This document shows, one piece after another, positions 6,598 to 26,763 of a DNA stretch of 54,739 nucleotides. Numbering within the stretch: position 1 is the stretch's first letter; the number at the start of each line of letters is the position of its first letter. The position numbers and the translations under genes were made by a program. The notes beneath the pieces are model-generated. The model did no database searches and was not told where the DNA came from. It worked only from the letters and a program-made list of their open reading frames with translations. Source of the DNA: an archaeon GW2011_AR15 (GTDB lineage: Archaea > Nanobdellota > Nanobdellia > Woesearchaeales > GW2011-AR15); contig CP010425.1 of NCBI GenBank assembly GCA_000830295.1, forward strand, positions 1,102,952 to 1,157,690, read 5' to 3'.

Positions 6598-6900
6598 TCA
6601 GTTATCAAAGCTGCCGCCCGGCCTGCTTGCTTCCAGCCTGTACACATCCGGGCTATTTATTAAATCAGGCAGTTCTGCATAAGGCATGCCAATTGCATAT
6701 ATCCCGCCTATTCTACCCATTTTGCCTTTAAAATCCAGTCCGGATTTTGCCCGCATAAGAAAATGAACTTTTGTTGTATTCAGGTCAATGCCCGGATCTT
6801 TTGTCATGAGGATATGGTACTGGTGCATCATGTACGGGTCAACTTTCGGGGATTTAAGTGCCTCTTCAATTTTCTCCTTCAGAGAAGTTTGGTCCTGCAT
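6598..6900 (-). CDS. Hypothetical protein, 100 aa
   Basis: Unrecognised. Residues 1-20 form a charged helix (SLKEKIEEALKSP), followed by a beta-rich middle (TTKVHFLMRAKSGLDFKGKM) and a segment, ELPDLINSPDVYRLEASRP. That segment has the rhythm of the inhibitor-I9 / subtilisin-propeptide fold (helix, then V-x-R-hydrophobic-E). The C-terminus is RPGGSFDN. There is no signal peptide. A minus-strand TATA-like element (TTTAAATATAAAC) lies about 25 bases upstream, so it is monocistronic. A small standalone inhibitor or chaperone of that fold is possible, but this is only a resemblance. Confidence 0.55.
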   Translation of the reverse strand: MQDQTSLKEKIEEALKSPKVDPYMMHQYHILMTKDPGIDLNTTKVHFLMRAKSGLDFKGKMGRIGGIYAIGMPYAELPDLINSPDVYRLEASRPGGSFDN

Positions 6901-8491: not shown

Positions 8492-8571
8492 TTACTCTTT
8501 TCCTGCTATTTCAGTAAAATATTTAAAAGAAGTAAAAGTTCATTCATACACCCGGCGGAATCTATGTTTAT

Positions 8572-8707
8572 GCGGAGGTGCCGGAGCGGTCAAACGGGAC
8601 AGGCTTAGGTCAGTCCAACACTATTAAGGTGTGCTGAGGCGAAAGCCGATGAATGTAAGACACCTGTTAGCTTAGTGCTTACCCAGGTTCGAATCCTGGC
8701 CTCCGCA
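8572..8707 (+). tRNA. tRNA-Leu(TAG) with a 52-nt intron
   Basis: Acceptor helix GCGGAGG/CCTCCGC with A at 8707, and T-arm CCAGG-TTCGAAT-CCTGG. The anticodon stem is ACAGG (8600-8604 region) with CCTGT at 8663-8667, and the anticodon is TAG at 8606-8608. A long variable arm (TAGCTTAGTGCTTA) identifies a class II tRNA. Removing 8610-8661 leaves an 84-nt tRNA. A TATA-like AATATTTAAAAG lies about 45 bases upstream. The 3' 15 bases recur at 8783-8797. Confidence 0.93.
8610..8661 (+). other. tRNA-Leu intron at canonical position 37/38 with kink-turn-like hairpin
   Basis: The intron lies between G37 and A38, the standard archaeal bulge-helix-bulge position. Inside is CTGA-GGC-GAAA-GCC-GATGA (8634-8652): a 3-bp stem with a GNRA tetraloop, flanked on both sides by GA, as in the tandem sheared pairs of a kink-turn. 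GGTGT at 8628-8632 can pair with ACACC at 8660-8664. Confidence 0.7.
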
Positions 8708-8797
8708 CTTTTCTTTATGTGTGCTTGACGAACAGAGTGAGGAAACACACAGCTCCATCAATGCTGATAAGGATTGGTGGGTATCCTGGCCTCCGCA
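8693..8797. repeat. Hairpin unit between direct repeats of the tRNA-Leu 3' end
   Basis: ATCCTGGCCTCCGCA occurs at 8693-8707 and 8783-8797 (offset 90 bp). The 75-bp insert contains hairpins TGTGTG/CACACA (8718-8751) and CCATCAAT/ATTGGTGG (8755-8780, one wobble). A T6 run follows the outer copy, consistent with the original tRNA terminator now displaced downstream. Confidence 0.75.
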
Positions 8798-8817
8798 TTT
8801 TTTATTCTAAAATTATG

Positions 8818-9795
8818 TCAGAAATATTTAAGTTTGAATAGTACCCATATTGAGATAGAGGAGAAGATAAGCGATATCAGGACAACAATGCCGAATGCAT
8901 GCGGGGACTGCTGGAAAGGCAGTGGTATGTTCATCCCGTATATGCTTGCAATCAGCACAGGGAGCGAGATTATAAGTGTTATTGAAGTAAGGATTTTTAT
9001 CACGACGTTCAGATTATTCGATATTATTGAGGCAAATGCATCCAGAGTATTTGACAATATATTTGAGTAGATATCTGTCATCTGGATTGCCTGGTTTGTC
9101 TCATCTATGATTTTTGTAATAAGGTATTCATCCTCATCAGTCTTCACCCTTATGCCGTATTTTGAAACACCGTACTTGGTCCTTCCGTTTTCCTTGCGGC
9201 CTTTCTTCTTGCGCCCCTCCTCAGCAATCCTCTCAATCAGGATTTTATTTGACTTAAGCGACGTGTTGAAATATACAAAGCTCTTTTCAAGCTGGAGATA
9301 ATCCATTACCAGTTCGTTTTTTTGTGATTCGGCAAGCTTGTCCTCAGCATTGTACATCTTGTTTTTAAGATCTAAAAGGTATGCCAGGTAGAGCCTGGCA
9401 GAAACCAAAAGCAGCCTGAAAACCAGCTGTGTCTTCCTAAAAGGAAAGTTCTGGGTCTTGAGTTTTGAAATAGTGTCGTTTTCGAAAAAGCAGATAGTAA
9501 GCACAAATTCATTTGTCGAAAATATCCCAAGCGGGACAGTATAGTATTCCAGATCCTTTCCCAGATTATTATATGGTGTCCTTATGATTATAAAAGTGAA
9601 CTTCTCATAGTTTTCTATTGCAGGCACTTCATCAATATCCTTAAGCGATATGAGCAGCTCTTCCGGTATGTCGAGCATTGACTTTATTCTGGTGATTTCG
9701 CTTTCAGTCGGCGAGATAACGTTTACCCAGCAGTTTTTTTCAAGCCTATCTAGAACTTCAAGCTTTTTCTGGGTCGGGCGGAGTATCTCAATCAT
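8818..9795 (-). CDS. corA: CorA-family Mg2+/divalent cation channel
   Basis: 325 aa. It has a cytoplasmic alpha/beta N-terminal domain, a long stalk-helix region (about residues 140-245), and two C-terminal spans separated by the selectivity signature YGMNIPLPF, with a short extracellular loop (QQSPHAFG). CorA works as a pentamer for Mg2+ or Co2+ entry. An unusually basic stretch (EEGRKKKGRKENGRTKYG and following, about residues 192-220) interrupts the stalk helices and could contact membrane lipids or nucleic acid. It is divergent from the E1-like gene; the 123-bp gap holds TATA elements for both directions. Confidence 0.9.
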   Translation of the reverse strand: MIEILRPTQKKLEVLDRLEKNCWVNVISPTESEITRIKSMLDIPEELLISLKDIDEVPAIENYEKFTFIIIRTPYNNLGKDLEYYTVPLGIFSTNEFVLTICFFENDTISKLKTQNFPFRKTQLVFRLLLVSARLYLAYLLDLKNKMYNAEDKLAESQKNELVMDYLQLEKSFVYFNTSLKSNKILIERIAEEGRKKKGRKENGRTKYGVSKYGIRVKTDEDEYLITKIIDETNQAIQMTDIYSNILSNTLDAFASIISNNLNVVIKILTSITLIISLPVLIASIYGMNIPLPFQQSPHAFGIVVLISLIFSSISIWVLFKLKYF

Positions 9796-9880
9796 GTGAT
9801 GCAGGTTATTCCGATGTCCCTTATAAATTTTTCTGCCTGTAATTTTTCATGCATAATCCCGGAAGCTATCCGGCTTTCCC

Positions 9881-9890
9881 GTTTATACCA
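9881..9890 (+). promoter_or_regulatory. TATA box of the E1-JAMM operon
   Basis: GTTTATACCA followed by ATTTAAAACC, 29-38 bases before ATG 9919. It fixes the start at 9919 rather than the open extension reaching 9796. Confidence 0.5.
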
Positions 9891-9918
9891 ATTTAAAACC
9901 CTGCGGTATCTTCATGGC

Positions 9919-11451
9919 ATGGCAGAAAGGAACAGCAGGAACGAGCTTGCATGGGGGGCTGAAAACCAGGAGAAGCTCAGGAAATCAAAGGTCCTTGTTG
10001 CCGGCACAGATATACTCGGCCAGATGGTGCTTGGAGGACTTGCGGGACTGGGCATAGGCAGCATACATCTCATGGACAACAGGAGGGTAAGCAGGGGAGA
10101 TTACGATTTTCTGTGCTCACAGACCAATACAGATATCGGGCAGAAAAAAACCAGCCATATCAGAAGCACGCTGGAAAGCATAAATCCTTCTATCGATGCG
10201 GTTGTAGCTATCCATTCCAGATTCTCTGAAGCCCTGGCCTATCCTCTCCGGCCGGATATAATAGTGGACGCGACTAACGACCGGCTAACAAAGAAAAAGA
10301 CTTCTGAATATGCAGCCAAGTACAGGATTCCTGTTATATCTGCCTCTTCAGGGAGTTCAAAAGCTGCTGTTTCTGTTTTTTCTCCGGCTAGGAAAATAAA
10401 ACCAATGCACAGCTCTGCTGACCTTGATTCCCTTCTCATGGATGAATTCTATAAAGAGACGCAGTCTCCTGTGGCGGGCGGGGTCATAGCAGGGATTGCA
10501 TGCGAGGAAGTGAGGAAGCAGATATTTGCGTATGATAAAAAAGATACTCCCCTCCAAAACAGGAAAAAAATCATGTATAACCTGAATTCTGAGTCCAGGA
10601 CAGGAGTTTCTGAACCACAAAACATAGCTTCGTATTTCAGGCACAGGAAAATGCTGGTTGCCGGGGCAGGGGGCATTGGAACTTTTGTATGCCTTAATCT
10701 TGCTCTGCTTGGTGTAGGCTCTATTGATATAGTGGATTTTGATTCTGTCGAAGAGCACAACCTGAACAGGCAGCTCCTTTTCTACGGCAGGCAGGGTGAG
10801 CTGAAGGCTGAAGTGATGGCTGGCAGGATAGCCCTAATAGACCCTCATGCAGATGCTTCTGCTTTTTCCGCCAGGGTTGGGAAGATAGACATGAAAAAGG
10901 ACAGGCCATGGCTGGAAGAGCTGTATGAGACAGACAGGAAGCTGTGGGAGCAGGAAGACGATAATACAAGAGAGCCTGATTATCCTGGGTTTGAGGATTA
11001 TGTAAAAAAGAATTTCGGCTATCAAAAGGACAGGCTGCTTGATGAGAAGATCGCAGAAAAAGGCTATGATATGATTTTCGGCTGCCTTGACAACAAGTAT
11101 GCAAGAATATGGCTCAACAATTTCTCTGTTAATAACAAAATACCCTATATTGACGGCGGAACCGCTGCCAGATCCGGCCAGGTTGCTGTGTATGTTCCCG
11201 GAAACACAAGCTGCGTGGACTGCCAGCTCGACCTGAAGCATCTCAAAAGGATTCCCATGCACTGCCATGAGGCAGATGCCAGCGTGGTCATGTCAAATAT
11301 GGTTATAGGAAGCGCAATGGTCGGCGAGGCAGTAAGGATATTTTCCGGTGCAGCCCCCCTGAACGGGATTCTGAGATATGACCCCTTCTCTGATTCGCGG
11401 CTGTATATAGATAATAAAAGAACAAGGTTTGCAAAAAAACACGGGTGCTGA
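9919..11451 (+). CDS. Tandem E1/ThiF-superfamily ubiquitin-activating-like enzyme
   Basis: 510 aa from ATG 9919, made of two Rossmann ThiF/MoeB/E1 domains. Domain 1 (about residues 22-205) is decayed: the nucleotide loop reads AGTDILGQ, the usual Asn-Arg-Gln triad is absent, but VDATND (117-121) remains. Domain 2 (about 244-500) has the full adenylation set: GAGGIG (249-254), DFDSVEEHNLNRQ (273-285) and GCLDN with Asp391. It also has a Cys cluster: Cys432, Cys435, and a PMHC ending at Cys449 that recalls the Cys...P-x-H-C of canonical E1 enzymes. An inactive half before an active half is the layout of eukaryotic Uba1. It probably adenylates the C-terminus of a ubiquitin- or ThiS-like protein not encoded nearby. 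It is co-transcribed with the JAMM gene 3 bp downstream. Confidence 0.82.
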   Translation: MAERNSRNELAWGAENQEKLRKSKVLVAGTDILGQMVLGGLAGLGIGSIHLMDNRRVSRGDYDFLCSQTNTDIGQKKTSHIRSTLESINPSIDAVVAIHSRFSEALAYPLRPDIIVDATNDRLTKKKTSEYAAKYRIPVISASSGSSKAAVSVFSPARKIKPMHSSADLDSLLMDEFYKETQSPVAGGVIAGIACEEVRKQIFAYDKKDTPLQNRKKIMYNLNSESRTGVSEPQNIASYFRHRKMLVAGAGGIGTFVCLNLALLGVGSIDIVDFDSVEEHNLNRQLLFYGRQGELKAEVMAGRIALIDPHADASAFSARVGKIDMKKDRPWLEELYETDRKLWEQEDDNTREPDYPGFEDYVKKNFGYQKDRLLDEKIAEKGYDMIFGCLDNKYARIWLNNFSVNNKIPYIDGGTAARSGQVAVYVPGNTSCVDCQLDLKHLKRIPMHCHEADASVVMSNMVIGSAMVGEAVRIFSGAAPLNGILRYDPFSDSRLYIDNKRTRFAKKHGC

Positions 11452-11454
11452 AAA

Positions 11455-12555
11455 ATGAAACTGCTTGATGATATACTCAGTAAATATTTTTACAAAACTG
11501 CAGGCTCTTCTGGCTCTGATGCCTATGATTCGTCAAGACCTGATTATTCTGAGAGGTTCAATTTAAGGGATGACGGTCCGGAGTATATCATGAAGATGCA
11601 GAGATATCAGTACAGGTTCAGGGAGTGTCTTGAATCCAGGCTTGAAAACCCGTCTGAGCCCGGAGAATACAGCAGCAGGATGATAAAGAGCACGGCAGCA
11701 ATGACAGAGTTCTGTAATGACTATGGCTTTGACGTATCTTCCTATATCAGGAGCCGCGCGTTTAATGAAAGGAGAGAGCTGCTGAAAGAAAAGCTCAGGA
11801 GGAGGATTGCCAGAGATTCCAACAGGGAGATAGACAAGACAGTTGCAGATGCTGCAAAGAGCATTAAGATAACAGATTACGCCCTGAAAAAAGCGAATTA
11901 TGCTGCAAGAAAAATTTCAGAGCTTTCATCAAAAGCAGGGAAGCGCGGTTCGTACGAACTAGGCATGTACATGCTGAGCAGCTCTTTAAAGAATGACGAT
12001 GATGTCGTGACTGATATTTATGTTGCACAGGAGCAGGTTGTGACCCAGGGCAGGTGCAACATAACCCCTGAGGGTGTGATGAAGTCGCTGAGAGATACAA
12101 AAAAATCAGGGAAGAGGATAATAGGCTGGGCCCATTCCCACGGCGGCTTCAGCACATTCTTCTCAGCAGAGGATGATGAAACCCTTCTCGGCAGGAAAAA
12201 TATAGCAGAGAGCTCTTTTTTCCCGATGTTCCTTGAGAAAAAGGTTAAGGGGCATTTAGCGCCTGATGATGTGGTAAAATATTTCCTTGCACTTGTGGTA
12301 AATGAGAAGAACGATGAGCCGGCCTACAGGATAGTGGCTGTCAAGCCGAGGTATTTTGTTGAAAACGGGAGACTCAGGAAAAAGACAGAAGTAATAGACC
12401 TTGAGAGGACTATATCAGAAAACAGCGGGGAGAACTGGCCTGCTGCTGAGATAGCGGAAGAGAAAAGCAGGGAAATTGATGCAGAGATAGCCGGCCGCGT
12501 AAAGTTCCAGGACGGCACAAGATTAAGTGATTATCAGCCTGTTGTGACTGAATAA
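11455..12555 (+). CDS. JAMM/JAB-domain metallopeptidase (deubiquitinase-like)
   Basis: 366 aa. The C-terminal half carries a perfect JAMM signature, WAHSHGGFSTFFSAEDDE: His227, His229, then Ser237 and Asp240 with the expected seven- and two-residue spacing. Glu168 in SYELGMYML is a likely catalytic Glu. These residues bind Zn2+ in isopeptidases that cut after the C-terminal Gly-Gly of ubiquitin-like proteins. The N-terminal 160 residues are helical and charged, without a recognised domain. The start lies 3 bp after the E1-like stop, so the two are translationally linked. It could mature a ubiquitin-like precursor, remove conjugates, or release sulfur-carrier adducts. Confidence 0.85.
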   Translation: MKLLDDILSKYFYKTAGSSGSDAYDSSRPDYSERFNLRDDGPEYIMKMQRYQYRFRECLESRLENPSEPGEYSSRMIKSTAAMTEFCNDYGFDVSSYIRSRAFNERRELLKEKLRRRIARDSNREIDKTVADAAKSIKITDYALKKANYAARKISELSSKAGKRGSYELGMYMLSSSLKNDDDVVTDIYVAQEQVVTQGRCNITPEGVMKSLRDTKKSGKRIIGWAHSHGGFSTFFSAEDDETLLGRKNIAESSFFPMFLEKKVKGHLAPDDVVKYFLALVVNEKNDEPAYRIVAVKPRYFVENGRLRKKTEVIDLERTISENSGENWPAAEIAEEKSREIDAEIAGRVKFQDGTRLSDYQPVVTE

Positions 12556-13754
12556 GGCGTGCCGTAAATCCCAAGGTGGTTGGCAACTGGCCTGCCTCCC
12601 AGTTCCGCTGTATAGACAATGCCGCCTTTGTTCTCTATAATCAGTGAGCTGGATCCCCCACCGTCCATATTGATTGCATGGCTTGCCTGGTTTTCCAGCA
12701 GTATATATGCAAGCTCCCTGAAATTGAGCCCTGGCATATCTCCTGTATCCCCTACTGATATAACAAGTACAAGATGCTCATTCTCTTCATCCAGGCCTAT
12801 TGATGTCCTCGGCCTTCTTGTCTCATACCCATCCTTGTGGTCAGGATGGCCCTTGTCCTTAACTTTTGCATTCACATCTCCTTTTACCACCAGTGTTGTC
12901 GAGCCTGAGATTGCATTGTAAACCACATTAGGCCTTTTTCCGATGCTGACTTCATTGTCTTCTGAGATGAAGATTGGCACTTCCCCTGAATCTTCCGGCC
13001 TTTCTGCATACAGGTCTCCGAGCGAGGCTGCCAGCCCTGCAACATCTGCGTTCGAGCTGTATACTGTGCCAGGAGGCCAGGGCCACTGGTCGCCGTTGAT
13101 TGCTATCTGCACTCTCTGCTGCCTCTGGAAATCAATAGCCGGCTGCAGGCCTGTCTGATGAGGGGTCACAAGGAAGCTTGTCCCCGGGTCTCTTAATGCA
13201 ATCTTTACGACGTAATAGTGCACAGGGAATCCCTCTTCTGTGATATAATCATCTTCCTTGTAGATTATATTCCTGTAAATCATCTCAAAGCCCTCGGGGA
13301 TTTCCACTTTTTTGTAGTCCAGCTCCCTGTGCTCGAATGCCTCAAAGCTTGTTTTCTGCTCTGCTTTTGACAGCTCTATAGGGAAATCCAGGTATACAAA
13401 GAGGTTATTGCCTATGAATTCTGCTTCATAAGCTGGAGTCTGGTAATTTACGTTGTATTCCTTTTCTTTAAAGGTTTTAAAATCGTCAATGCAATCCATG
13501 TAGTGGTCTTTGAGATAGTCTTCCACTAATTCCGGGTCGTCAACAACCCACAGCTTCTCTTTCAGCTCCAATACTGTGAAATGCACGCACCCTGTCACGT
13601 AATCCTTTAATGATTCTTTTGTCTGAGTGAACAAAACTGCCTCTTCCCCCTCGTTCCGGAGGCTGTTAGGGTCTAAGGTGATGATGAATGCCACAATGAA
13701 GACCAGGAGAAGCCCTATTATAACGAATGCAGACGTCATCCCTCTTTTGTCCAT
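12534..13754 (-). CDS. Phosphodiester-glycosidase-domain (NAGPA-like) exported protein
   Basis: 406 aa. The N-terminus, MDKRGMTSAFVIIGLLLVFI, is a short basic segment plus one hydrophobic helix of the kind seen on archaeal pilin-signal and anchored exoproteins. The C-terminal 200 residues match the phosphodiester glycosidase fold. They contain a QIAINGD segment, TSIGLDEEN, and the diagnostic HAINMDGGGSSSLIIENKGG followed by GGRPVANHLGIYG. In animals this domain uncovers mannose-6-phosphate; in prokaryotes it is linked to wall or capsule glycans. The N-terminal 150 residues are unassigned. It is convergent with the JAMM gene (22-bp overlap). A minus-strand TATA box lies at about 13770-13780. 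Confidence 0.8.
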   Translation of the reverse strand: MDKRGMTSAFVIIGLLLVFIVAFIITLDPNSLRNEGEEAVLFTQTKESLKDYVTGCVHFTVLELKEKLWVVDDPELVEDYLKDHYMDCIDDFKTFKEKEYNVNYQTPAYEAEFIGNNLFVYLDFPIELSKAEQKTSFEAFEHRELDYKKVEIPEGFEMIYRNIIYKEDDYITEEGFPVHYYVVKIALRDPGTSFLVTPHQTGLQPAIDFQRQQRVQIAINGDQWPWPPGTVYSSNADVAGLAASLGDLYAERPEDSGEVPIFISEDNEVSIGKRPNVVYNAISGSTTLVVKGDVNAKVKDKGHPDHKDGYETRRPRTSIGLDEENEHLVLVISVGDTGDMPGLNFRELAYILLENQASHAINMDGGGSSSLIIENKGGIVYTAELGGRPVANHLGIYGTPYSVTTG

Positions 13755-13828
13755 GCAGGGTTTAGAGAAGGGGTGGTATATAAAGTTTGTTCAAAAAGAT
13801 ATTTATATTAGGGTTGCATATTGTCTTT

Positions 13829-14008
13829 GTGGTTAACAAAGAGCTGCTGAAATCACTCGGGTTTCTCGTACTGCTTTCTATCGGCTTTCCTTTAATCATG
13901 ATACCCATATTCGAGAGTGTTCTGTACGGCATACTTGTCGGCCTGCTATTGGCATTCTTCGGGTTTGTGGTTATGTTGTTTTTTAAGAGTGATTCGGGGA
14001 AGCGTTAA
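13829..14008 (+). CDS. Small two-span membrane protein, 59 aa
   Basis: The hydrophobic segments are LLKSLGFLVLLSIGFPLIMIP and, after a short loop, VGLLLAFFGFVVMLFF, ending in a charged tail. I take the GTG at 13829 as the start because the TATA box ATTTATATTA (about 13800-13809) lies 20-29 bases upstream, which makes it leaderless. An ATG at 13787 is in frame but lies before the TATA box. No family is recognised. It is divergent from the NAGPA-like gene. Confidence 0.45.
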   Translation: MVNKELLKSLGFLVLLSIGFPLIMIPIFESVLYGILVGLLLAFFGFVVMLFFKSDSGKR

Positions 14009-14103
14009 GCTTATCATTACAGCAACCTTTATAAATGACCACTGATTTTCCTGTAGCAGAGAGAGAAAAAACCGATTAGATCACTTTCTCAAGAGTGGCG
14101 GAG

Positions 14104-14436
14104 ATGAAAGGAAAACCACTATTGCCTACATTAAGGATAAAAAAAAGATATGTCGTGTATGAGGTTGTCTCAGAGCAGGCTATAGACTCAAGGGAGGCTG
14201 TAAAGGCCATCATAGAGTCATATGCAAAGTGCTTCGGCACATTCGGGCTTGCTGAAGCAGGAATACTCGACACAAGGATATATGCGGGCAGCAGGGGAAT
14301 GCTCAAGATAAACCACAGATACGTAGATAACCTGAGGGCAGCAATGGCCATGATAAAAACAATAAACACCCAAAAAGTCATCATAAGGACCGCAGCTGTC
14401 TCGGGAATACTAAGAAAAGCAAAATTAAAGTTATAA
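14104..14436 (+). CDS. rnp2: RNase P protein component 2 (Pop5)
   Basis: 110 aa from ATG 14104 (an in-frame GTG at 14095 would add three residues). The start MKGKPLLPTLRIKKRYVVYEV matches the Pop5/Rnp2 N-terminus, followed by a ferredoxin-like alpha/beta domain ending in RTAAVSGILRKAKLKL. Rnp2 pairs with Rpp30 to activate archaeal RNase P for 5' tRNA maturation. It heads the proteasome-exosome operon, 12 bp before psmA, with a TATA box at about 14029-14038. Confidence 0.9.
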   Translation: MKGKPLLPTLRIKKRYVVYEVVSEQAIDSREAVKAIIESYAKCFGTFGLAEAGILDTRIYAGSRGMLKINHRYVDNLRAAMAMIKTINTQKVIIRTAAVSGILRKAKLKL

Positions 14437-14448
14437 GGAGGTCACAAA

Positions 14449-15165
14449 ATGCAACCACTACAGCACCAGATGATGGGTTATGATAGGGCAATTACAATGT
14501 TCTCTCCTGACGGGAGGTTATTGCAGGTAGAATATGCAAAGAAAACAGTAAGGCAGGGCAGCACTGCAATCGGAATAGTCTGCACTGACGGAATAATCCT
14601 TGTCACTGACAAGAGGATTGTCGACAAATTGATAGTCCCTGAGTCCGTCGAGAAGATATGGAAAATAGACGAGCACATAGGCGTCACAGCCTCAGGAATA
14701 ATAAGCGACGGCAGGGTGCTTATAGAAAGGGCGCAGGTATTGGCGCAGCAGCACAAGGTGACATACGACTCACCTATTGATATAATATCCATTGTAAAGG
14801 ATGTCGCAAACCTGAAGCAGTGGACAACGCAGTCAGGAGGGTACAGGCCTTTCGGCGTCTCACTGCTGATAGCAGGCGTTGACAACGGCACTCCGAAATT
14901 ATACGAGACAGACCCGACAGGAATATATTTCCAGTACAAGGCAACTGTGATAGGGGAAGGCGAGCCACAGGTCGAGGAAGTGCTTTACAAGGAATACAAG
15001 GAAAGCATGAACATGGAAGACGGCTTCAGGCTGGCAATGAGATGCCTCAAGAAAGCCCTTGACAAGAATTTTGACACTGAAAGGGTGGATGCGGCATTTA
15101 TTTCCCTGAAGGACCAGAAATTCACAAAGGTGAAAAAGGAGAAACTTCTTGCATACGCAAAATGA
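14449..15165 (+). CDS. psmA: Proteasome subunit alpha
   Basis: 238 aa with the archaeal alpha-subunit N-terminus (GYDRAITMFSPDGRLLQVEYA), which forms the gate and the Gly-Arg-Leu-x-Gln-Val-Glu-Tyr signature. Then come GSTAIGIVCTDG and the PFGVSLLIAGVD strand, and the C-terminus is lysine-rich. It forms the outer rings of the 20S core and docks PAN or Cdc48. A good Shine-Dalgarno (GGAGGT) lies 6-12 bases upstream. Its 3' end overlaps the SBDS start by 4 bp. Length is typical. Confidence 0.97.
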   Translation: MQPLQHQMMGYDRAITMFSPDGRLLQVEYAKKTVRQGSTAIGIVCTDGIILVTDKRIVDKLIVPESVEKIWKIDEHIGVTASGIISDGRVLIERAQVLAQQHKVTYDSPIDIISIVKDVANLKQWTTQSGGYRPFGVSLLIAGVDNGTPKLYETDPTGIYFQYKATVIGEGEPQVEEVLYKEYKESMNMEDGFRLAMRCLKKALDKNFDTERVDAAFISLKDQKFTKVKKEKLLAYAK

Positions 15166-18370: not shown

Positions 18371-20962
18371 TTATTTTTCTGTTTTATTTTCTGTTTTGGT
18401 GTTTTCGCTTACAGCATAATTAAGCATCTGCATTGACAGGTTGTCGAGGAATGTCGTTTTCCTGGACACCGCCAGAGTAAATTCTTTAATATCAAGTATT
18501 GACGAGAGAGCATCGTATGCCGGGAACTTATCGCCGTTATTAAACATGTAAAGCATATCTTCAAAGCTGTTGTGCCTGACATTCAGCAGGACTTTTGCAT
18601 TATCTGTGCCGGGTTCTGTCTTGTATACAAAAAGCGGCTCTCCCCTGCCAAGAAGTGAGGTCTCTTTGCCGAGATAATACCCCATATTGTAGATTGCCAG
18701 CATTGTATTATCCCTATCCCTCCTGTCGTGGCCATAAGCAGGACTGCTGTGCTTCATAACCTCATATTCAATGCTGCCCTTATCATAATAGCCAAAGCAT
18801 TTGATTATTTCGTCCCTGATAAAGTCTTTCAGCTTAGCTATACCCGGGTATGTTGTTTCATCCGGGGTGTATTCTATTACAGTCGGGAACCGGGGCACGC
18901 CCTGTCTTTTGCCATTGCTCTGGTCCATTTTGCTTTTTATTGTTTCCCCTACCCTTGCTATGCCATATATTGCCGCGCCTCCGACAGCCAGAGGAACCCC
19001 TATAGCCAGCACACCTGCCCCGACTGTCATGATTGTCACTACTCCTGTGCCTATCAGAAAAGTCCCTCCAACCACAATTCCTGCGCCTCTTGCAACTCCT
19101 TTTACAGCATGCCCTGCTGCATATGCAGCATCCCTAGCTGCCCGGGTAGTCGCAGGTATTGTCCTTCTGAGTATTTCCATATCATAGTTCTTCATTTTGG
19201 TTGGTTTTGCGCTTTTTACAAGGTCTACAAGACCTCTGTCAAGCGGGTTCACCCTGATTATATTGCTCTTCTCCATCTGCGATATAAAAGGCGTCCATAT
19301 GCTGTTAACCATGTAGCCGAATCTCGGGTTGTCAAGAAGAGAGACAAAATCCTCGAGCGTGATATTTTTGCTGTTTACATTGCTGAACATTACTGTTTTT
19401 GATATCCTGTCATACACTCCTGCTATTGTATCTTCGTTCTTGTATTCCCTGTTCTTTCCGTATGTGTGGTAAATCTTGGCAAAGTCAACAAGGTATTTCA
19501 GCGCGGCATTCTTTTCTGACATGCCCCCTTTTTTCATAAAATCAGGGAGCTGCACTACAAAATCCAGGTATTCCTTCTGGAGCTTTCTTATTATCCTGTT
19601 GTAAAGCGGGCTGGACTCGTTTACCTTATCCCAGAGCCATCTGGTTACTTCAAGCTCTGGTGCTTCTATGGAAGCCTCTACCCCAAGCATTGAACCGGTG
19701 AACAGGTTCCTGTCAACCTTGTCTATGTAAACTCCCTCTTTCAGGAACTCCATGTTTCCTGTGAAAGAATGGCGCCGAGGCCTGAGAGGCATGCCGAAGA
19801 AGCCATGGAAATCCTTATCTTCTATCTCTGCCATGTAAAGATATCTCCCCTTCAGCCCTGGCTTTCTTTTTGGTGCCTCTATCCTTGCTTTGGCCTGCAA
19901 TTCTTTACTGAATTCTTCACTGTAATCAACAAGCTTATCTCTGCTTCCGAGCAGCATCTGGATAGCGGCCGCTTCTTTCTGGCCAATAACAAGTGTAATG
20001 CCTCCGTCCAGACACTCATGCTTTTCTGCTTCAGATGTCGGGACATAGCGCACTTTCCTGTTTTTTATTGCATCTTCCAGCGATACTGCTTTTCCTGCAG
20101 TTGACATGAAAAACTTTGCCTCAAAGAAACTGTCACGGTCTGCGCCGAAAGTTTTTTCCTCGTAATCAAAATCATCATCTTTCTCCGGCCTATAGTGCGC
20201 CAGTGCCGAAATTATCCTTGGCCTCAGGTATTTCACATGCGCCCTTTCATTGTGGTCATACTTAGATGCCGCTTTTGCCAGGAATTTCGCAACTGCCTGG
20301 TCTGCTATGGTCTGTTTAATATGCTTTTCCTTGCCGTTGTCCAGGCCTGTAAATTTCTCATCGTATATCTGGTATTTTGTATTCATGACTATCTCCGTGG
20401 CCGGCAGGAGTGAGTAGTCCCTTATGGTATCAAGATAACGGTCATGGTAGAGCACTGTTATATCTGAGCGGATTTCACTTTTCTCATCCATATTGAGTAC
20501 ATAGTCTGAATAGAAGGTCCCGTAGCTGCTGTAGTATACAGAATTCATAATCGGTGTTTTCGGAACATAAAAATCAAACTGGTATCCTGAAAGTGAAACC
20601 GAGTCCTTAATCAGTATGTTCTTCTCTTTAAACTTAAATTCAGGAGTGTCTTCAAGGAATCTCTGCCTGTAGACAGATGTCTGAAGGTCCTTGTTGACTT
20701 CATTAAGGTGCTGTATAGGGAATCCTTTGATTCCCTTCAGCTGTTGCAGAAGCTCCAGGAGCTCTCCATTCCCGATATATACTGCATCCGGTGCAATTTT
20801 CAGCGCCTTTGAGCCGATGAATCTCCTGTCTGTAACATACTCTATCTCCCCTCCCGTCCGGCCTGCAAGTTTTACAAGCTCTTCAAGGTCAAGTGCTGTA
20901 CCGTCCAGCTTCTTCACTCCCTCAATCTTCATGAGTTGAGATATCAATTGCTTGTCATTCAT
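18371..20962 (-). CDS. Large uncharacterised protein with glycine-rich hydrophobic hairpin, 863 aa
   Basis: Unrecognised, the last gene of the five-gene operon. Residues 1-640 are soluble mixed alpha/beta. Around residues 635-700 there is an Ala/Gly-rich run (AGHAVKGVARGAGIVVGG, then GTGVVTIMTVGAGVLAIG and a third hydrophobic segment). It could form a membrane-inserted or pore-like hairpin, flanked by KSKMDQSNGKRQG. The C-terminal 160 residues are again soluble, ending in a Lys/Thr/Glu repeat encoded by a 13-bp near-tandem repeat at 18356-18405. Its start overlaps the upstream gene by 4 bp (ATGA). The hairpin suggests an effector or membrane anchor for the GHKL partners, which is inference. 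Confidence 0.7.
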   Translation of the reverse strand: MNDKQLISQLMKIEGVKKLDGTALDLEELVKLAGRTGGEIEYVTDRRFIGSKALKIAPDAVYIGNGELLELLQQLKGIKGFPIQHLNEVNKDLQTSVYRQRFLEDTPEFKFKEKNILIKDSVSLSGYQFDFYVPKTPIMNSVYYSSYGTFYSDYVLNMDEKSEIRSDITVLYHDRYLDTIRDYSLLPATEIVMNTKYQIYDEKFTGLDNGKEKHIKQTIADQAVAKFLAKAASKYDHNERAHVKYLRPRIISALAHYRPEKDDDFDYEEKTFGADRDSFFEAKFFMSTAGKAVSLEDAIKNRKVRYVPTSEAEKHECLDGGITLVIGQKEAAAIQMLLGSRDKLVDYSEEFSKELQAKARIEAPKRKPGLKGRYLYMAEIEDKDFHGFFGMPLRPRRHSFTGNMEFLKEGVYIDKVDRNLFTGSMLGVEASIEAPELEVTRWLWDKVNESSPLYNRIIRKLQKEYLDFVVQLPDFMKKGGMSEKNAALKYLVDFAKIYHTYGKNREYKNEDTIAGVYDRISKTVMFSNVNSKNITLEDFVSLLDNPRFGYMVNSIWTPFISQMEKSNIIRVNPLDRGLVDLVKSAKPTKMKNYDMEILRRTIPATTRAARDAAYAAGHAVKGVARGAGIVVGGTFLIGTGVVTIMTVGAGVLAIGVPLAVGGAAIYGIARVGETIKSKMDQSNGKRQGVPRFPTVIEYTPDETTYPGIAKLKDFIRDEIIKCFGYYDKGSIEYEVMKHSSPAYGHDRRDRDNTMLAIYNMGYYLGKETSLLGRGEPLFVYKTEPGTDNAKVLLNVRHNSFEDMLYMFNNGDKFPAYDALSSILDIKEFTLAVSRKTTFLDNLSMQMLNYAVSENTKTENKTEK

Positions 20963-23619
20963 CTGCTTCCACCGCCGAAAAAAGAAAATTTCCCCATTTT
21001 TGTGTAATTATATATCAGGAAGTTGGTCATGTTCTGGTTATTTGTGCGCAGCTGAAAGAAGTTTATGAGGGGGTTCCCCACATATGTGCTGCAGAGCTGA
21101 TTGAAGTATCCGACTGCCTCTTCACTGATTTTCTCGAGAAGGACAGAATATTCCGGGTTTCCCGAATCGATTTTCGCACCAGAGTATTCATCATCAAATA
21201 TCATAGGCAGGTCAGGGGATTCAACAACAATTTCAAATCCTGAAACTGGCAGCTCTATAGTGGTTTCAGATACCTTTCTGTTATAATGCTTGAACTGGAC
21301 TGTGTTTTTGCCGAATCTTTCAACGTCCCTTGAAATGCTCATAGACAGGTCGTATTGCGAGCCATCTATATCAAGGCTGACATTTTTGCCTGGGTTGTAT
21401 GGGCTTCTCCAGAATGAATAGTATTCCGGCTTTCTTTCTTCAAATCTTCTTCTGGGGGTGTAATCATGCGGCGCCACTTCATATCCCATCTCCCCAAGCA
21501 TGTCTGCGCAGAACTGCACTATCTTAGTGCCCTCATTCATCAGGACAATCCTGTTCGACATGGTCTCATAGGTCTCATCTTTCCCAACCCAGCTGTCATA
21601 GAACAGCAGGCCCCTGTCCCTCTTCGGAGAATCCTCTATGTCCTTTGCCAGCTTATTTATTGAAACCTTATCCTCACTTGTTGTTTTGAATATAGGAAAT
21701 TCCCGGAATGAAGTGATAAGTTCTTCTCCTGAATTCCTGAATGATTCAGGGCTGTTTATTATGAAATCCCTGATCATGGCTTCCATTCTTTCGAAATCTG
21801 TCTTCTCTGAATCCCTGCTCCTTTCTGTGCTGTATGTCGGCTTGCTCTTTACTTTGAGGAAGGCATTTACATACAGCTCAGCTGCTGCCTTCTTCAGGTC
21901 AGCCATGAAATTCTCATTTTCCTTCTCTCCAGGCACAAGGTCTGTCATGGCATCTATAAGCCTCAGCTCGTCATTGTTAACTATACCGTAGAAAGGCAGG
22001 TCAAGTATCTCAGAAAATTTTATTTTCTTCACTTCACGGCCGTCATTAAGAATAGTTACCAGTCCATTTGCGGATTTGTTGACAGGTATTGCAAGTTCTC
22101 CTCTTGTCCTGCCATAGTCGAAGGATATCTTAAAGAACTGGTTCTTATCATAGTATGGCAGGATCGGGCTGAGCCTGATCTGCCTTTCAAACTGGTAAGC
22201 GCTGTATTCTACTGCAAGCGAATTTGTCAGATTGATAAACTCTACTTTTTTTTTTGCCTCTTTAAATCTCTTCTCAATAAGGGCCATGACTACATCTTCC
22301 TTGCCTGAAAACGGCAGGTATTCTGCAAGCAGTTGCTCTCCTGTTGAGATAATTGAGAAAATATTTTTTATAGACCTGTGGAACAGTTCTTTTGACTTAT
22401 CATACTCTCCTCTCACTGCCTGCAGTTCCGGGATGTACACTAGTGGAATTCCTTCTTTCGGGAAGGGGAATGCTTCAGTTGTGTAGTATACTCTGGCTGT
22501 CTTGCTGCCTTTATTTTTCAGCAAAGCCTTGACAAGGCCTTCGTATGAATATGCATCCTTTCCTGTATGGTCCTGGAACAGCGGTGCAGAAAGCAGCGCT
22601 TTTATGGCTTTTTCCGAGATATGCTCTGTCTGGAACCCAAACATATTGCTGTATAAGACGCTGAATCCTGCTATCCTTGCTATCTCCTTTTTTTGTTTCT
22701 CGTATGCCATGTCCCCTTTTGTCGGCTTCTTGTATTTGGACATGCTCCCTATATCGCTGAAATTCTTCCCAAGCTCAGCAAGGAATTCATCCACGTAGCC
22801 CCTTATAGCCATCCTCTCCTTATAAAAAGAGCCGGAGATGACTTTGCCGCTGATATCCTTTTCAAGATCGTCAAAAGCAGCCATGCCTGACAGTGTTACC
22901 CCCGGGGCTACCTCAACAGCCGTGCTTGAGACTTTCTTTCCGAAATTCGTTATATCTATCCTGTGCTTTTCTGCGGGGTTCTCGAGTGCCAGTATTCCCT
23001 CAAGCCCGTCTGCAGAAAACCTGTGCTGGAAGCTTGAATGGGGAAAATTAAACCCGACTGAGATGTCCTTTACATTGTTGTATTTTACTGGAATAGGTGA
23101 ATACAGCTGGTCTTTTATTGCTTTGTATATAGGCCTGCGCTGCTCCGGGAGGACGCCCCTTGAAAGGTCATTCGAGAAGTATATCAATGTCGTTTCTTTC
23201 TTTTTTGGCCTGATGGTTTTTACAGCCAGGTCTTCGGCCTCTTTGCCTGCATCAAGGTTCGCTGCAAAGTGCTTTCCATTCCAGTGCGTATAGACATTCA
23301 TGTTTTCTGCCCCGCCTATACCTATTATTCCTGCCACAGTTTTCTGGAATGCGTTGGAAACATTGAACAGCTCCTCCTCTGAGCCGTATATCCTGAACGG
23401 GTCTTCTATAATCTCCGGAGGTATCCCCTTCCCGTCAAATTCAATTCTCGTGGAAAATACGCTTTCGGAGATATTGAAGAAACTCGCATTATTCCTGACT
23501 GCAATCTCATATAGGGAAAAAATAGATTCTGTCCATTCTGAAAGCGTTTCTTTAAGCAGCTTCCTTCTCCTTGCTGCTTCATCAATCCCTATTTTAAGCG
23601 TGCCGATTGCCTTTGACAT
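20959..23619 (-). CDS. Large protein with divergent GHKL (Hsp90-like) ATP-binding fold, 886 aa
   Basis: The N-terminal 150 residues follow the GHKL plan in weakened form. A helix SLYEIAVRNNASF takes the place of the N-box (Glu38, Asn43, no DA pair). FDGKGIPPEI (62-70) replaces the DxGxG loop, and AGIIGIGG (96-103) keeps the GxxGxG lid motif. KETTLIYF near residue 141 fits the distal Thr strand. ATP binding is therefore doubtful without a test. The remaining 700 residues match no family I recognise and contain no membrane span. It is encoded 2 bp after the canonical GHKL gene, so the two probably form a complex. Confidence 0.7.
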   Translation of the reverse strand: MSKAIGTLKIGIDEAARRRKLLKETLSEWTESIFSLYEIAVRNNASFFNISESVFSTRIEFDGKGIPPEIIEDPFRIYGSEEELFNVSNAFQKTVAGIIGIGGAENMNVYTHWNGKHFAANLDAGKEAEDLAVKTIRPKKKETTLIYFSNDLSRGVLPEQRRPIYKAIKDQLYSPIPVKYNNVKDISVGFNFPHSSFQHRFSADGLEGILALENPAEKHRIDITNFGKKVSSTAVEVAPGVTLSGMAAFDDLEKDISGKVISGSFYKERMAIRGYVDEFLAELGKNFSDIGSMSKYKKPTKGDMAYEKQKKEIARIAGFSVLYSNMFGFQTEHISEKAIKALLSAPLFQDHTGKDAYSYEGLVKALLKNKGSKTARVYYTTEAFPFPKEGIPLVYIPELQAVRGEYDKSKELFHRSIKNIFSIISTGEQLLAEYLPFSGKEDVVMALIEKRFKEAKKKVEFINLTNSLAVEYSAYQFERQIRLSPILPYYDKNQFFKISFDYGRTRGELAIPVNKSANGLVTILNDGREVKKIKFSEILDLPFYGIVNNDELRLIDAMTDLVPGEKENENFMADLKKAAAELYVNAFLKVKSKPTYSTERSRDSEKTDFERMEAMIRDFIINSPESFRNSGEELITSFREFPIFKTTSEDKVSINKLAKDIEDSPKRDRGLLFYDSWVGKDETYETMSNRIVLMNEGTKIVQFCADMLGEMGYEVAPHDYTPRRRFEERKPEYYSFWRSPYNPGKNVSLDIDGSQYDLSMSISRDVERFGKNTVQFKHYNRKVSETTIELPVSGFEIVVESPDLPMIFDDEYSGAKIDSGNPEYSVLLEKISEEAVGYFNQLCSTYVGNPLINFFQLRTNNQNMTNFLIYNYTKMGKFSFFGGGSR

Positions 23620-23621
23620 TT

Positions 23622-25769
23622 TTATTTAACCCCGTATTCCAGTTTCAGGATTTTTGAATACATCTTTGCAGCCCTTCCCGGGTGCCCTGCATTTGACAGG
23701 GAAATGAATCTTCTGTTTCTCTCGTCATTATAATTAATAAAAAGCGTCCTCTGCCTTCCCTCAATTAATCTCCCTTCCTTTCCGACAGACGCAAAAAGCT
23801 CCCTGCTGATATTGTTCCAGTTCCCGTTGCCCTTGTAATACATCTCACCGCCTCCATTGCCGCTGGCAACAAGAATTTTCTCATATTCTATGCTGCCTGA
23901 AGCTGTAAAATCAGCAAACCTCACGTAATCAAAAGGAAGCTGCCTGACAAGGTAATCCAGGAATTTCTCTTCCCTGTCTGTAGGTTCAATTTGATTTGGG
24001 ATGAAAAACAGGCCATTTATGTTCTCCGAGGATTCAAAGTTGAATATCCCCATGCTTCCCAGTTTTCTTGCATGCTGCGTGCCTGCCTTTATCACTGGAA
24101 TGCTGTATTCGCCAAGTTTTTTTGCTATGCCTGTGTTATCCTCCTGGCCCTCTGTGAAAATACAGCCGAATTCCTTCCTTACCCTGATAAGGTCATCAAG
24201 GGAGCATGACTTTGCTTCCTGGCTTTCAGCAAGGGGGATGAATTTTGATTCGTATGCAAGTGAGTTTGTATAGCTCCCTACCAGCCTGATGGCTTTTTGC
24301 CTTATGCGGTTCTTATAAAAATCAGGGCTGATTATTTTAACAGCCAGCCTGTTTCTGAAAGGGCCCATCGCACTTCCCTGCTTTACCCTCGAATCAATTG
24401 AGGTTACAAGCTCGAGTGCGGCAACTGCTATATCTGGTGACAGGGGCAGCACTGGCTTTTCTTTTGAGGCGTCAATGGCTTCAAAGAATTTTGTGTATAG
24501 CCTCTTTTCCATCTCAGGAATCTGCTGGAGGATTGTCTTGTACTGCTTTCCTTTCTCCCCCTCCCTTGCTATCCCTTCTCTTGTCAGGTCATGGTGAATC
24601 ATGGGAGAATCAATATAGATAGTGATATTGCTGCTTGGCAGGTCTTTTTCCTTGCCTTCCCACAGCAGAATCCCCTTGTTCCTTACTTCTATGGCAGTGT
24701 GCTCTTTTGTTTCTTTTCCTATGACCATTGATATTTTTGTGCCGTTGAATTCCTTGTCCAGCCTTATGCTGTCAAGCGCATCCAGCAGTTTCGCCCTGTA
24801 TGAACCGTCTACTTTATCCTTATGCGCGAGTATCATTTTAGGGTTAAAGAAAGCCTGCGATCTCCAGCCGTATCTGGAAAGAGACCTGAATCCTTCAGGA
24901 ACCACCCCCCTGAATTCAGGGGATACAAGTTTTGCAATTATCCTGTCAAGCTCTGATTCATGGCTCGCTGCGATGTTCAGCCTTACAAATTCCGGCTTCG
25001 GCCCACTCACAATTTTATAGCTCCTGTATCCCTGGCCGTCATCTGCAAATCCCTTGTCATCATTGTTTATATCAAGGAATTCCCAGCCTTCGCCTTCCTC
25101 TTTCCGGGGGTCAAACGGGATTACTCCAAAATATAATGGGGCCTCAATTTTGCTCGTCCACCTCTGGATTACGCCCAGGACACTCTCAACAAACTTATCT
25201 TCCCTGTCGCTTGGTATCGGGTTAAACATCTGCATTATGGAAGTGCCGAAATTCTCAGGAATTACCCCCTTTGTGCCCTCTGACGACCAGAAATCCTCTT
25301 TTGTGAATATGTACTGCTCTATTCTCGGAAAATTTTTCTGGGGATTGTTGTCTGTGAATACAAGCCTGTATACAGGTGTTTCTCCCTTTGGGATACCCAT
25401 CTCTGTCCAGTCCTTTTTCTCCCCGAACTTGGGCGTGGTGTTTACAATAGTGTATTTCCAGTCAAGGCCGAGCTTGCACATTGTTCCTATGCCGTACTTC
25501 CCGGTCTGTGTAAAGTCCTTGTCTTTTGTGCTTGAGAACAGGACAAGATAATTTTCTTTCAGCACACTGTAGTCCATGCCTATCCCGTTATCATTATACA
25601 TAACAAAAGGGTATACTATATTTTCAGACCGTATGCTTGTGAACCCGACAATTATCTCAAGCCTGCTTGATTTCGCATCCTGCATATTCTGTATCTCCTC
25701 CCTTGGGGCAAGCTCAGGCGGAACGTGCTTGATTATTTTCTGGTATTCTGCAAGGAGTTTCGTGTCCAT
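23622..25769 (-). CDS. GHKL-superfamily ATPase (Hsp90/MutL/MORC-like), 715 aa
   Basis: All four Bergerat-fold motifs are intact. N-box EEIQNMQDA has Glu25 and Asn28 as candidate catalytic base and Mg2+ ligand. G1 is YNDNGIGMDY (Asp60, Gly62, Gly64), G2 is GKYGIGTMC (90-97), and G3 is ENFGTSIMQ (Gly175, Thr176). A beta-rich domain from about residue 190 could be the ribosomal-S5-like transducer common to Hsp90, MutL and MORC. The C-terminal 250 residues are unassigned. It is not standard HtpG, MutL, TopoVI-B or a histidine kinase. An ATP-driven dimer clamp is the likely mechanism. It starts 1 bp after the 319-aa gene and ends 2 bp before the 886-aa gene. Confidence 0.82.
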   Translation of the reverse strand: MDTKLLAEYQKIIKHVPPELAPREEIQNMQDAKSSRLEIIVGFTSIRSENIVYPFVMYNDNGIGMDYSVLKENYLVLFSSTKDKDFTQTGKYGIGTMCKLGLDWKYTIVNTTPKFGEKKDWTEMGIPKGETPVYRLVFTDNNPQKNFPRIEQYIFTKEDFWSSEGTKGVIPENFGTSIMQMFNPIPSDREDKFVESVLGVIQRWTSKIEAPLYFGVIPFDPRKEEGEGWEFLDINNDDKGFADDGQGYRSYKIVSGPKPEFVRLNIAASHESELDRIIAKLVSPEFRGVVPEGFRSLSRYGWRSQAFFNPKMILAHKDKVDGSYRAKLLDALDSIRLDKEFNGTKISMVIGKETKEHTAIEVRNKGILLWEGKEKDLPSSNITIYIDSPMIHHDLTREGIAREGEKGKQYKTILQQIPEMEKRLYTKFFEAIDASKEKPVLPLSPDIAVAALELVTSIDSRVKQGSAMGPFRNRLAVKIISPDFYKNRIRQKAIRLVGSYTNSLAYESKFIPLAESQEAKSCSLDDLIRVRKEFGCIFTEGQEDNTGIAKKLGEYSIPVIKAGTQHARKLGSMGIFNFESSENINGLFFIPNQIEPTDREEKFLDYLVRQLPFDYVRFADFTASGSIEYEKILVASGNGGGEMYYKGNGNWNNISRELFASVGKEGRLIEGRQRTLFINYNDERNRRFISLSNAGHPGRAAKMYSKILKLEYGVK

Positions 25770-25770
25770 T

Positions 25771-26730
25771 TTACCTCCTGCCCGGGTAGTATATCTGCGG
25801 AGACCTGTCTATTCCGCTGTCTGCCAGCATTTCTGCAAGCTTGTCTGCAATTGCTTTCTCATGCACTGCATATATTGCCCCAAAATTGTAGCCTATGCTG
25901 TCCGGAAGTTTTGCCAGAATCTCTTCTTTAACAGGAGGAAGCATCATTGAGTTGAAATCAGGCACTGCAGTTTTCCTCTGTTTTATGTCTTCCCCTATTT
26001 CCTGGTAAGGAAAAACTGCAACCATGGCGTCATTCTCCCCTATAAAATCAGCAATCCAGTCGGGGTTTGCAGTCTGGGAAAAGTAAAAATATCCAAGGTT
26101 GCCAAAAGATATATTCCTGATCCTTATGTCCCCTGCCATCTCTCTAATGTGGGGCCTGTGTCCGTAGCTGTCAAGGGCGTTATAGAAACTAAATCCATCC
26201 AGGGCCATGTTAGTCTTAAGGAATCCGCTGAATTCTGGCGTGGGCTCTACGGTTTTTTTCTTTTTGTTTACTTTGAAGAACCTGTCCAGCCTGCCCTGCC
26301 TGTGTTCTATATCAGCTTTGATGTGCGAAAATGTCGCGTATGGCGTCATAATCTCAGCATCCAGAAGGTATGTTGCATAGCCTTCTGCATCAGGGTTTAT
26401 TTTCCATCTCCACTGGGAATTGAAGTACCCCTTTATTTTACTATCACCAAGTATGTCCGGGCTGCCCTTGGCATTCCTGAAATATTCTGCATAGTATATC
26501 ACCTGCGGCATGCCTGTTGCAGCCATTATTGAGAGCCCGTTATCTGTATCAAGAGCATATCTGGCAACACTGCTTTTTGTGTTGCTGAATATATATTCAA
26601 ATCTCTCTATTGCGTCATCCCTTTCAGGAAAATAGCTGTCGAGCGTCACTCCGGCCAGTATGCTGAGAAGCTGAGACTTGTATCTCTCAAATTCTTCATC
26701 TGCTATTATTTTTGTTATCAGCTCTGCCAT
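25771..26730 (-). CDS. Uncharacterised operon protein, 319 aa
   Basis: Unrecognised. It is a soluble mixed alpha/beta protein rich in aromatic residues. Segments that may be structural landmarks are DTDNGLSIMAATG near residue 62, NSQWRWKINPDAEGYATYLLDAEI near residue 104, FSFYNALDSYGHRPHIREM near 180, and FGAIYAVHEKAIADKLAEML near the end. The C-terminus is SPQIYYPGRR. There is no signal peptide, membrane span, cysteine motif or nucleotide loop. It is the second gene of the operon, 33 bp after the 435-aa gene and 1 bp before the GHKL ATPase, so it probably acts in the same complex. Confidence 0.65.
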   Translation of the reverse strand: MAELITKIIADEEFERYKSQLLSILAGVTLDSYFPERDDAIERFEYIFSNTKSSVARYALDTDNGLSIMAATGMPQVIYYAEYFRNAKGSPDILGDSKIKGYFNSQWRWKINPDAEGYATYLLDAEIMTPYATFSHIKADIEHRQGRLDRFFKVNKKKKTVEPTPEFSGFLKTNMALDGFSFYNALDSYGHRPHIREMAGDIRIRNISFGNLGYFYFSQTANPDWIADFIGENDAMVAVFPYQEIGEDIKQRKTAVPDFNSMMLPPVKEEILAKLPDSIGYNFGAIYAVHEKAIADKLAEMLADSGIDRSPQIYYPGRR

Positions 26731-26763
26731 CGCTTTCCCGTTAAAAAGTATAAAAAAGAAAAT

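Follow-up and report, generated by a model that had tools for sequence, protein, structure and literature searches.

An E1-like enzyme and a JAMM peptidase of the archaeon GW2011_AR15 as probable components of a scattered ubiquitin-like conjugation cascade

Two adjacent genes of the archaeon GW2011_AR15 very probably encode the activating enzyme (E1; P0001) and the JAMM metallopeptidase (P0002) of a reversible cascade for conjugation of a ubiquitin-like modifier (Ubl), which belongs to Woesearchaeota and Nanoarchaeota and whose genes no longer form a single operon in GW2011_AR15. The stretch of DNA analysed, 54,739 nucleotides long and referred to here as the window, forms the end of the one-contig, 1.158-Mb genome. 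Sequence analysis established the genes and their motifs, the families to which they belong, the association of these families in operons and the matching of clades, and it predicted a beta-grasp fold for the modifier; it is by analogy with the chemistry of the respective families that we infer every enzymatic step. A first-pass annotation had described the pair as an E1 plus JAMM only, with no E2 or modifier nearby. The latter statement holds for the window and fails for the genome, which has an E2-like gene at position 965160 and a Ubl gene at 1082757; the former was abandoned because these genes, elsewhere on the chromosome, are of the same clade as the pair.

The gene pair and the encoded enzymes

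The open reading frames of the E1 and the JAMM are separated by 3 bp, in agreement with the earlier description, and their coordinates are collected in Table 1 along with those of domains, neighbours and partners. An Rfam scan of window positions 8500–14500 gave no match.

Table 1. Positions of the gene pair, its domains, its neighbours and its presumed partners. Positions are those of the window, except for entries starting with G000:C1, which refer to the chromosome.
Feature	Position	Strand	Remarks
E1-like activating enzyme (P0001), two ThiF/adenylation repeats, 510 aa	9919–11451	+	ThiF Pfam match; E1 tree; start ATG at 9919, stop codon ends at 11451
N-terminal inactive adenylation domain of P0001, residues about 1–210	9919–10548	+	DxD..NxxRQ motif lost
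C-terminal active adenylation domain of P0001	10660–11451	+	Complete adenylation motif
Insert in the active domain, residues 318–382, about 65 residues	10870–11062	+	Without cysteine; variable in relatives
JAMM/JAB metallopeptidase (P0002), 366 aa	11455–12555	+	Prok-JAB; predicted role in Ubl trimming and removal
N-terminal region of the JAMM, about 150 aa	11455–11916	+	Poorly conserved; shared in part with the closest relative only
JAB catalytic domain of P0002	11917–12186	+	E168, H227, H229, S237, D240
CorA gene, neighbour of the E1 gene	8818–9795		Divergent
Phosphodiester glycosidase gene	12534–13754		Convergent; 22-bp overlap with the end of the JAMM gene
Rpp14–psmA–exosome superoperon	from 14095		psmA and exosome genes assigned by visual inspection
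Lone E2-like gene	G000:C1:965160-966407	-	C327 in the site
Lone Ubl gene	G000:C1:1082757-1083188	+	Roughly 20 kb before the window
Second Ubl–E2–JAB–E1 operon	G000:C1:134479-138984		L006:4480-8985; another clade
Cysteine-less HPFV protein, 199 aa	about G000:C1:175170-175770		L063:7170-7769

The Pfam family ThiF matched P0001 over three stretches (E = 6.7e-66). Judged by its sequence, P0001 is a tandem pseudodimer that joins a degenerate first and an intact second adenylation domain in one chain. The N-terminal repeat has a G-loop (G29) and D117, along with R4 and R7 near the N-terminus, at the position from which MoeB and UBA1 supply an arginine. The full adenylation site of the first-pass annotation was located in the second repeat, where it comprises GAGGIG at 249–254, D273, D275, N281, R284, Q285, K296 and D391, and to that description can be added the degenerate N-terminal repeat and C449. 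The latter is a conserved candidate catalytic cysteine, presumably placed in the same loop as those of ThiF and UBA5, and the same C-terminal domain holds a CxxC at 432/435. Within the family, the adenylation motif was present in all 26 E1s, and the cysteine preceding the [PAS]SVV loop was recognised by pattern in 20 of the 26, with that of P0001 assigned by eye. PDB matches of the active domain were SAE2, UBA1, ThiF and MoeB. No relative was found when genome contigs were queried with P0001 alone, and the E1 profile also matched CBASS Cap2 and Bub proteins. The E1 clade profile had no match among the viral contigs, so that there is no sign of a viral carrier.

P0002 matched Prok-JAB over residues 155–244 (E = 3.2e-6) and carries, as had been noted, the exact HxHx7SxxD motif. 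The JAMM motif was found in 34 of 35 family members, and the best PDB match of the family profile was a Caldiarchaeum Rpn11-like structure (6fjv; 8.7e-8). A helical JAMM domain of about 160 aa, put forward earlier as a distinguishing feature, is not defining, as this N-terminal region varies among relatives.

Operons of relatives and the partner families

The JAMM was used as a query against 60 relatives and matched in eight genomes; the named relatives are MAGs of Candidatus Woesearchaeota and Nanoarchaeota. Examination of gene neighbours in related genomes, as proposed in the first-pass annotation, revealed operons in which the tandem E1 and the JAB are accompanied by an E2-like protein of 380–550 aa and a Ubl of 130–150 aa. 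All four genes occur together in 23 of 31 independent E2-bearing loci, and in 26 of the 31 no more than about 110 bp separate the Ubl from the E2 gene; these fractions are not unbiased frequencies because the loci were picked via JAB, E2 or E1 matches. Several of the incomplete loci end at a contig edge. The JAB and E1 are separate genes throughout, with no fusion of the two in any locus read. The profile of the E2-like family matched in 49 of the 353 genomes of the order and in 41 of the 371 genomes of a phylum sample, 13 of these 41 belonging to other orders of the class; it had no match in the two genomes searched of the same genus.

The larger operon protein is probably an E2, as supported by its motif, an invariant cysteine, its operon place, the order of elements in a structure model (helix, four strands, active site, helix) and its pairing with cysteine-less copies. 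Its C-terminal region carries the motif HPF(V)x3GxIC with an invariant proline and cysteine. The pattern HPx[IV]xxxGxIC, again with invariant cysteine, was read from the alignment of operon-borne members, several of which show a spacing (HPxVxxxGxIC) equal to that of yeast Ubc4 (HPNINANGNIC), as does the site HPFVYTSGKIC of GW2011_AR15. The E2 fold is the weakest link of our explanation and is backed by motif and operon place. Foldseek with the model returned no significant match (best E = 0.11), with several E2s among noise at E = 0.3–1.7, PDB profile searches with the family found no E2, and Pfam gave no relevant match for its members. PF00179 (UQ_con) had no match in the genome of GW2011_AR15, and the controls were likewise without one. 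Comparison of the family with E2 by hhalign aligned the 15-residue active site alone (P = 0.002), with a probability of 14%, a value that did not exceed 4% in any of 30 column-shuffled controls. In the L090 cluster, a putatively active E2 (HPFVYDNGSIC) adjoins a copy in which the cysteine is replaced by aspartate (HPFVYDNGSID; L090:5778-6311), and the 199-aa protein of GW2011_AR15 (Table 1) has likewise lost the cysteine; such proteins are reminiscent of eukaryotic UEV partners.

The small operon protein is predicted to be a beta-grasp modifier. Its members mostly end in GG plus a short tail, and GG occurs within the last 20 residues of 20 of 34 Ubls, compared with 8 of 175 similarly sized ORFs outside the family (p = 6e-13). 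The fold was modelled with AlphaFold on the L083 orthologue, not on the Ubl of GW2011_AR15 itself, using a 12-sequence alignment (pLDDT 83). The model comprises one beta-grasp domain in 137 aa, in the order beta-beta-alpha-(helical insert)-beta-beta-beta, followed by a low-confidence tail. Foldseek retrieved FERM Ubl lobes, RING1B, SUMO1 and Caldiarchaeum ubiquitin at modest E-values of 2e-4 to 6e-3; the matches were mostly of the Ubl-type beta-grasp, with some superantigen-like folds, which also contain a beta-grasp. No relevant match was obtained with Pfam for family members or with a PDB profile search for the family.

Further genes were observed around the operons of relatives. ClpX-like AAA+ ATPases are encoded in archaeal loci at L026:2473-3627, L066:599-2182 and L020:2822-4390, the first at 5 bp from the Ubl gene; ClpX is not known to be common in archaea. 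Transglutaminase-like genes (PF01841) stand beside Ubl operons at L075:12115-12774, L073:5290-5988, L071:3325-4026, L068:14661-15353 and L019:4066-4635, and a RimK-like ATP-grasp ligase is encoded in L075 and L073. These accessory genes hint at unfolding or further peptide chemistry. A search of the GW2011_AR15 genome yielded distant AAA matches only for ClpX and no transglutaminase-like gene of the relatives' family. In one Woesearchaeota cluster (L089:641-7552), four Ubl genes and three E2-like genes surround a single E1.

Scattered partners and the proposed cascade

With profiles built from other genomes only, the genome of GW2011_AR15 was found to contain a lone E2 (E = 4.4e-78) and a lone Ubl (E = 6.7e-26), the latter answering the earlier suggestion to search for a GG-tailed beta-grasp modifier. 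The Ubl ends in VENASGG-LKWQAYKV, and the active site of the E2-like protein, which includes C327, reads YKHPFVYTSGKICYG. In the E1 tree, P0001 belongs to an eight-member clade (support 99/97) of E1s encoded in Ubl/E2/JAMM operons, the other seven being those of L018, L020, L021, L073, L074, L075 and L080. In the E2 tree, the lone E2 clustered with all the E2s of precisely these seven loci (91/84), leaving that of the second operon outside. Profiles of clade A versus clade B (the rest) gave 229/110 bits for the lone E2, 91/25 for the lone Ubl and 172/106 for P0002, with the relation reversed for the E2 and JAB of the second operon. The scattered E2 and Ubl were assigned to the clade of the window pair on the grounds of these trees and profiles. 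The four genes lie at three places in the genome, and we therefore infer their joint action from clade matching, not linkage.

In the proposed cascade, the JAMM would cut the eight-residue tail LKWQAYKV off the Ubl precursor, exposing Gly-Gly. The C-terminal repeat of the E1 would adenylate the Ubl glycine, the other half of the pseudodimer being supplied by the degenerate N-terminal repeat, and the E1 would then carry the Ubl as a thioester on C449 and pass it to C327 of the E2-like protein. The E2 would put the Ubl onto target proteins, possibly aided by the cysteine-less E2-like partner, and the JAMM would take it off again. In Caldiarchaeum, an archaeal pro-ubiquitin is matured by a JAMM and then handled by E1 and E2 (PMC5654768). 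No E3 was identified, and no RING was found among the neighbour proteins scanned with Pfam, which are part of all neighbours.

The same genome also contains a second, complete operon of another clade (L006; Table 1). Genes for two membrane proteins come after it, and ahead of it lie a divergently oriented gene for an AAA-like ATPase and those of two unknown proteins. The small protein of this operon, P0006, was called a Ubl from its operon place and GGR end only, and was not recognised by independent Ubl profiles. A separate thiolation locus (L007) encodes a single-domain, UbaA-like E1 together with a SAMP2/ThiS-type protein, whose C-terminus is GG, and a PP-loop enzyme bearing the motif SGGKDS.

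Several minor observations concern the surroundings of these genes. The lone E2 gene adjoins one for a 350-aa, probably helical protein with homologues in the L073, L075, L090 and L071 clusters, and the lone Ubl gene (L032:8168-8644) shares 22 bp with the beginning of a gene for a predicted lipoprotein. A third, weak Ubl-like protein (L141:5896-6321; E = 0.001 to 4e-6) ends in GCG, not GG. A 100-aa ORF of the window (6598–6900) ending in RPGGSFDN was rejected as a modifier because it is not matched in the Ubl profile searches of the genome.

Alternative explanations and known systems

A feature-by-feature comparison upheld the view of the first-pass annotation that the pair falls outside the usual CBASS, Bil and SAMP forms: by the features tested, the sequences do not place the system with Bil, SAMP/UbaA, CBASS or Bub, and by analogy it would work like Bil and the Caldiarchaeum system. 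An antiviral purpose of the Bil kind, which would leave the chemistry of the cascade unchanged, is unlikely. It is suggested by the patchy distribution and by the same four activities, encoded as in Bil by four separate genes, whose order equals BilABCD in part of the relatives (operons of the L006/L022 type). BilD, moreover, likewise unites an inactive and an active adenylation domain in one chain (PMC11354881). Against it, the Bil modifier consists of two consecutive Ubl domains, the Bil E2 has a CEHH motif and BilD carries its catalytic cysteine in a helical Cys domain of about 80 aa (PMC11354881), whereas the Ubl here has a single beta-grasp domain, the E2-like site has HPF before the cysteine and no CEHH after it, and the candidate cysteine of the E1 lies beside the CxxC in the adenylation domain, the variable insert of P0001 being cysteine-free. 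The present system is also archaeal, no Bil protein was among the PDB or NCBIfam matches listed, no defence-gene context was seen and PADLOC gave generic E1–E2 matches only.

That the window pair is instead a spare E1 and protease for the second operon, unconnected with the scattered E2 and Ubl, is very improbable: although this operon is complete and present in the same genome, it has its own E1 and JAB, and P0001 and P0002 are of a different clade, which is that of the scattered E2 and Ubl. We give hardly any credence to sulfur carrier chemistry, in which the E1 would activate a ThiS/MoaD/SAMP-like protein for tRNA thiolation or a cofactor and the JAMM would merely process this carrier. ThiF and MoeB are close in sequence to P0001, and JAMMs of the MoaD–MoaE type exist (PMC8832034). 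However, P0001 is a tandem pseudodimer without a rhodanese domain, and the genome has the separate thiolation locus. The first-pass annotation had named thiamine, molybdopterin or cysteine genes beside orthologues as an indication of sulfur transfer only; none was present in the orthologue clusters read, where Ubl, E2-like and JAMM genes are the neighbours, so that its reading as more than sulfur transfer stands. Just as implausible is a decaying remnant of non-cooperating leftovers, to which the scattered genes, the patchy distribution in the order and the two same-genus genomes without an E2 match might point, given that all four ORFs are intact and retain the GG tail and all catalytic residues, and that Ubl–E2–E1 likewise stand apart from any JAB in the L074/L083 genome.

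The preferred reading, a reversible Ubl-conjugation cascade, can be compared with further systems. The operon of Caldiarchaeum subterraneum (Ub, E1, E2, small RING and Rpn11) is likewise archaeal, with an E1–E2 relay and a pro-Ubl whose short tail after GG is removed by a JAMM (PMC5654768), and the JAMM profile and Ubl model obtained here match its Rpn11-like and ubiquitin structures. It differs in that no RING gene was recognised in the clusters scanned here, and in that here the E2 is not detected as such by Pfam, the E1 is a fused pseudodimer and the Ubl has an inserted helical segment. UBA1, SAE1–UBA2 and NAE1–UBA3 share the combination of an inactive and an active adenylation domain, and the active half finds its best PDB sequence matches in the catalytic subunits of the SUMO and NEDD8 E1s; P0001 differs from eukaryotic E1s in having 510 rather than about 1000 residues, and neither a second catalytic-cysteine half-domain nor a UFD was found in it. 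SAMP/UbaA also pairs a ThiF-type E1 with a Ubl in archaea, but UbaA contains a single adenylation domain and works without an E2, in contrast to the tandem E1 and E2-like partner here. Type II CBASS (Cap2/Cap3) and Bub (BubCD) share E1 and JAMM chemistry; Cap2 is an E1–E2 fusion and BubCD a JAB–E1 fusion, whereas the genes here are separate, with no CD-NTase among the neighbours read.

In the literature searched, which was covered in part, no DPANN Ubl–E1–E2–JAMM operon was described, and both the Ubl and the E2-like families are missing from Pfam. Among archaea, Caldiarchaeum has been demonstrated to possess a complete E1–E2–Ubl–isopeptidase system, and Asgard archaea are reported to have such systems as well (PMC5654768). 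We tentatively suggest, as a doubtful but possible interpretation, an undescribed and widespread DPANN conjugation system with a pseudodimeric single-chain E1, a Ubl and E2 invisible to Pfam, a UEV-like dead E2 paired with the active one and, encoded next to the operon in part of the relatives, a ClpX-like unfoldase. Such a system might be a tag-and-unfold pathway that was assembled independently and exists beside the proteasome, and GW2011_AR15 might run two such systems plus SAMP/UbaA. A Ubl system with an E1 of eukaryotic layout in roughly every seventh to ninth genome of the DPANN order and phylum samples would widen the known range of tagging and would give new material on the origin of the pseudodimeric E1 and of E2/dead-E2 pairing. 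It would also mean that a seemingly incomplete E1–JAMM pair can represent a complete system with scattered genes.

Similar E1 pieces were seen at contig ends of a Dehalococcoidia MAG (L118, L119), which belongs, like L087, to the isolate series CSMAG, and reflect either gene transfer or a binning error. Farther along the window, five consecutive minus-strand genes for proteins of 319–886 aa occupy positions 18371–28071, just one of which has a Pfam match, to a GHKL-type ATPase (23622–25769).
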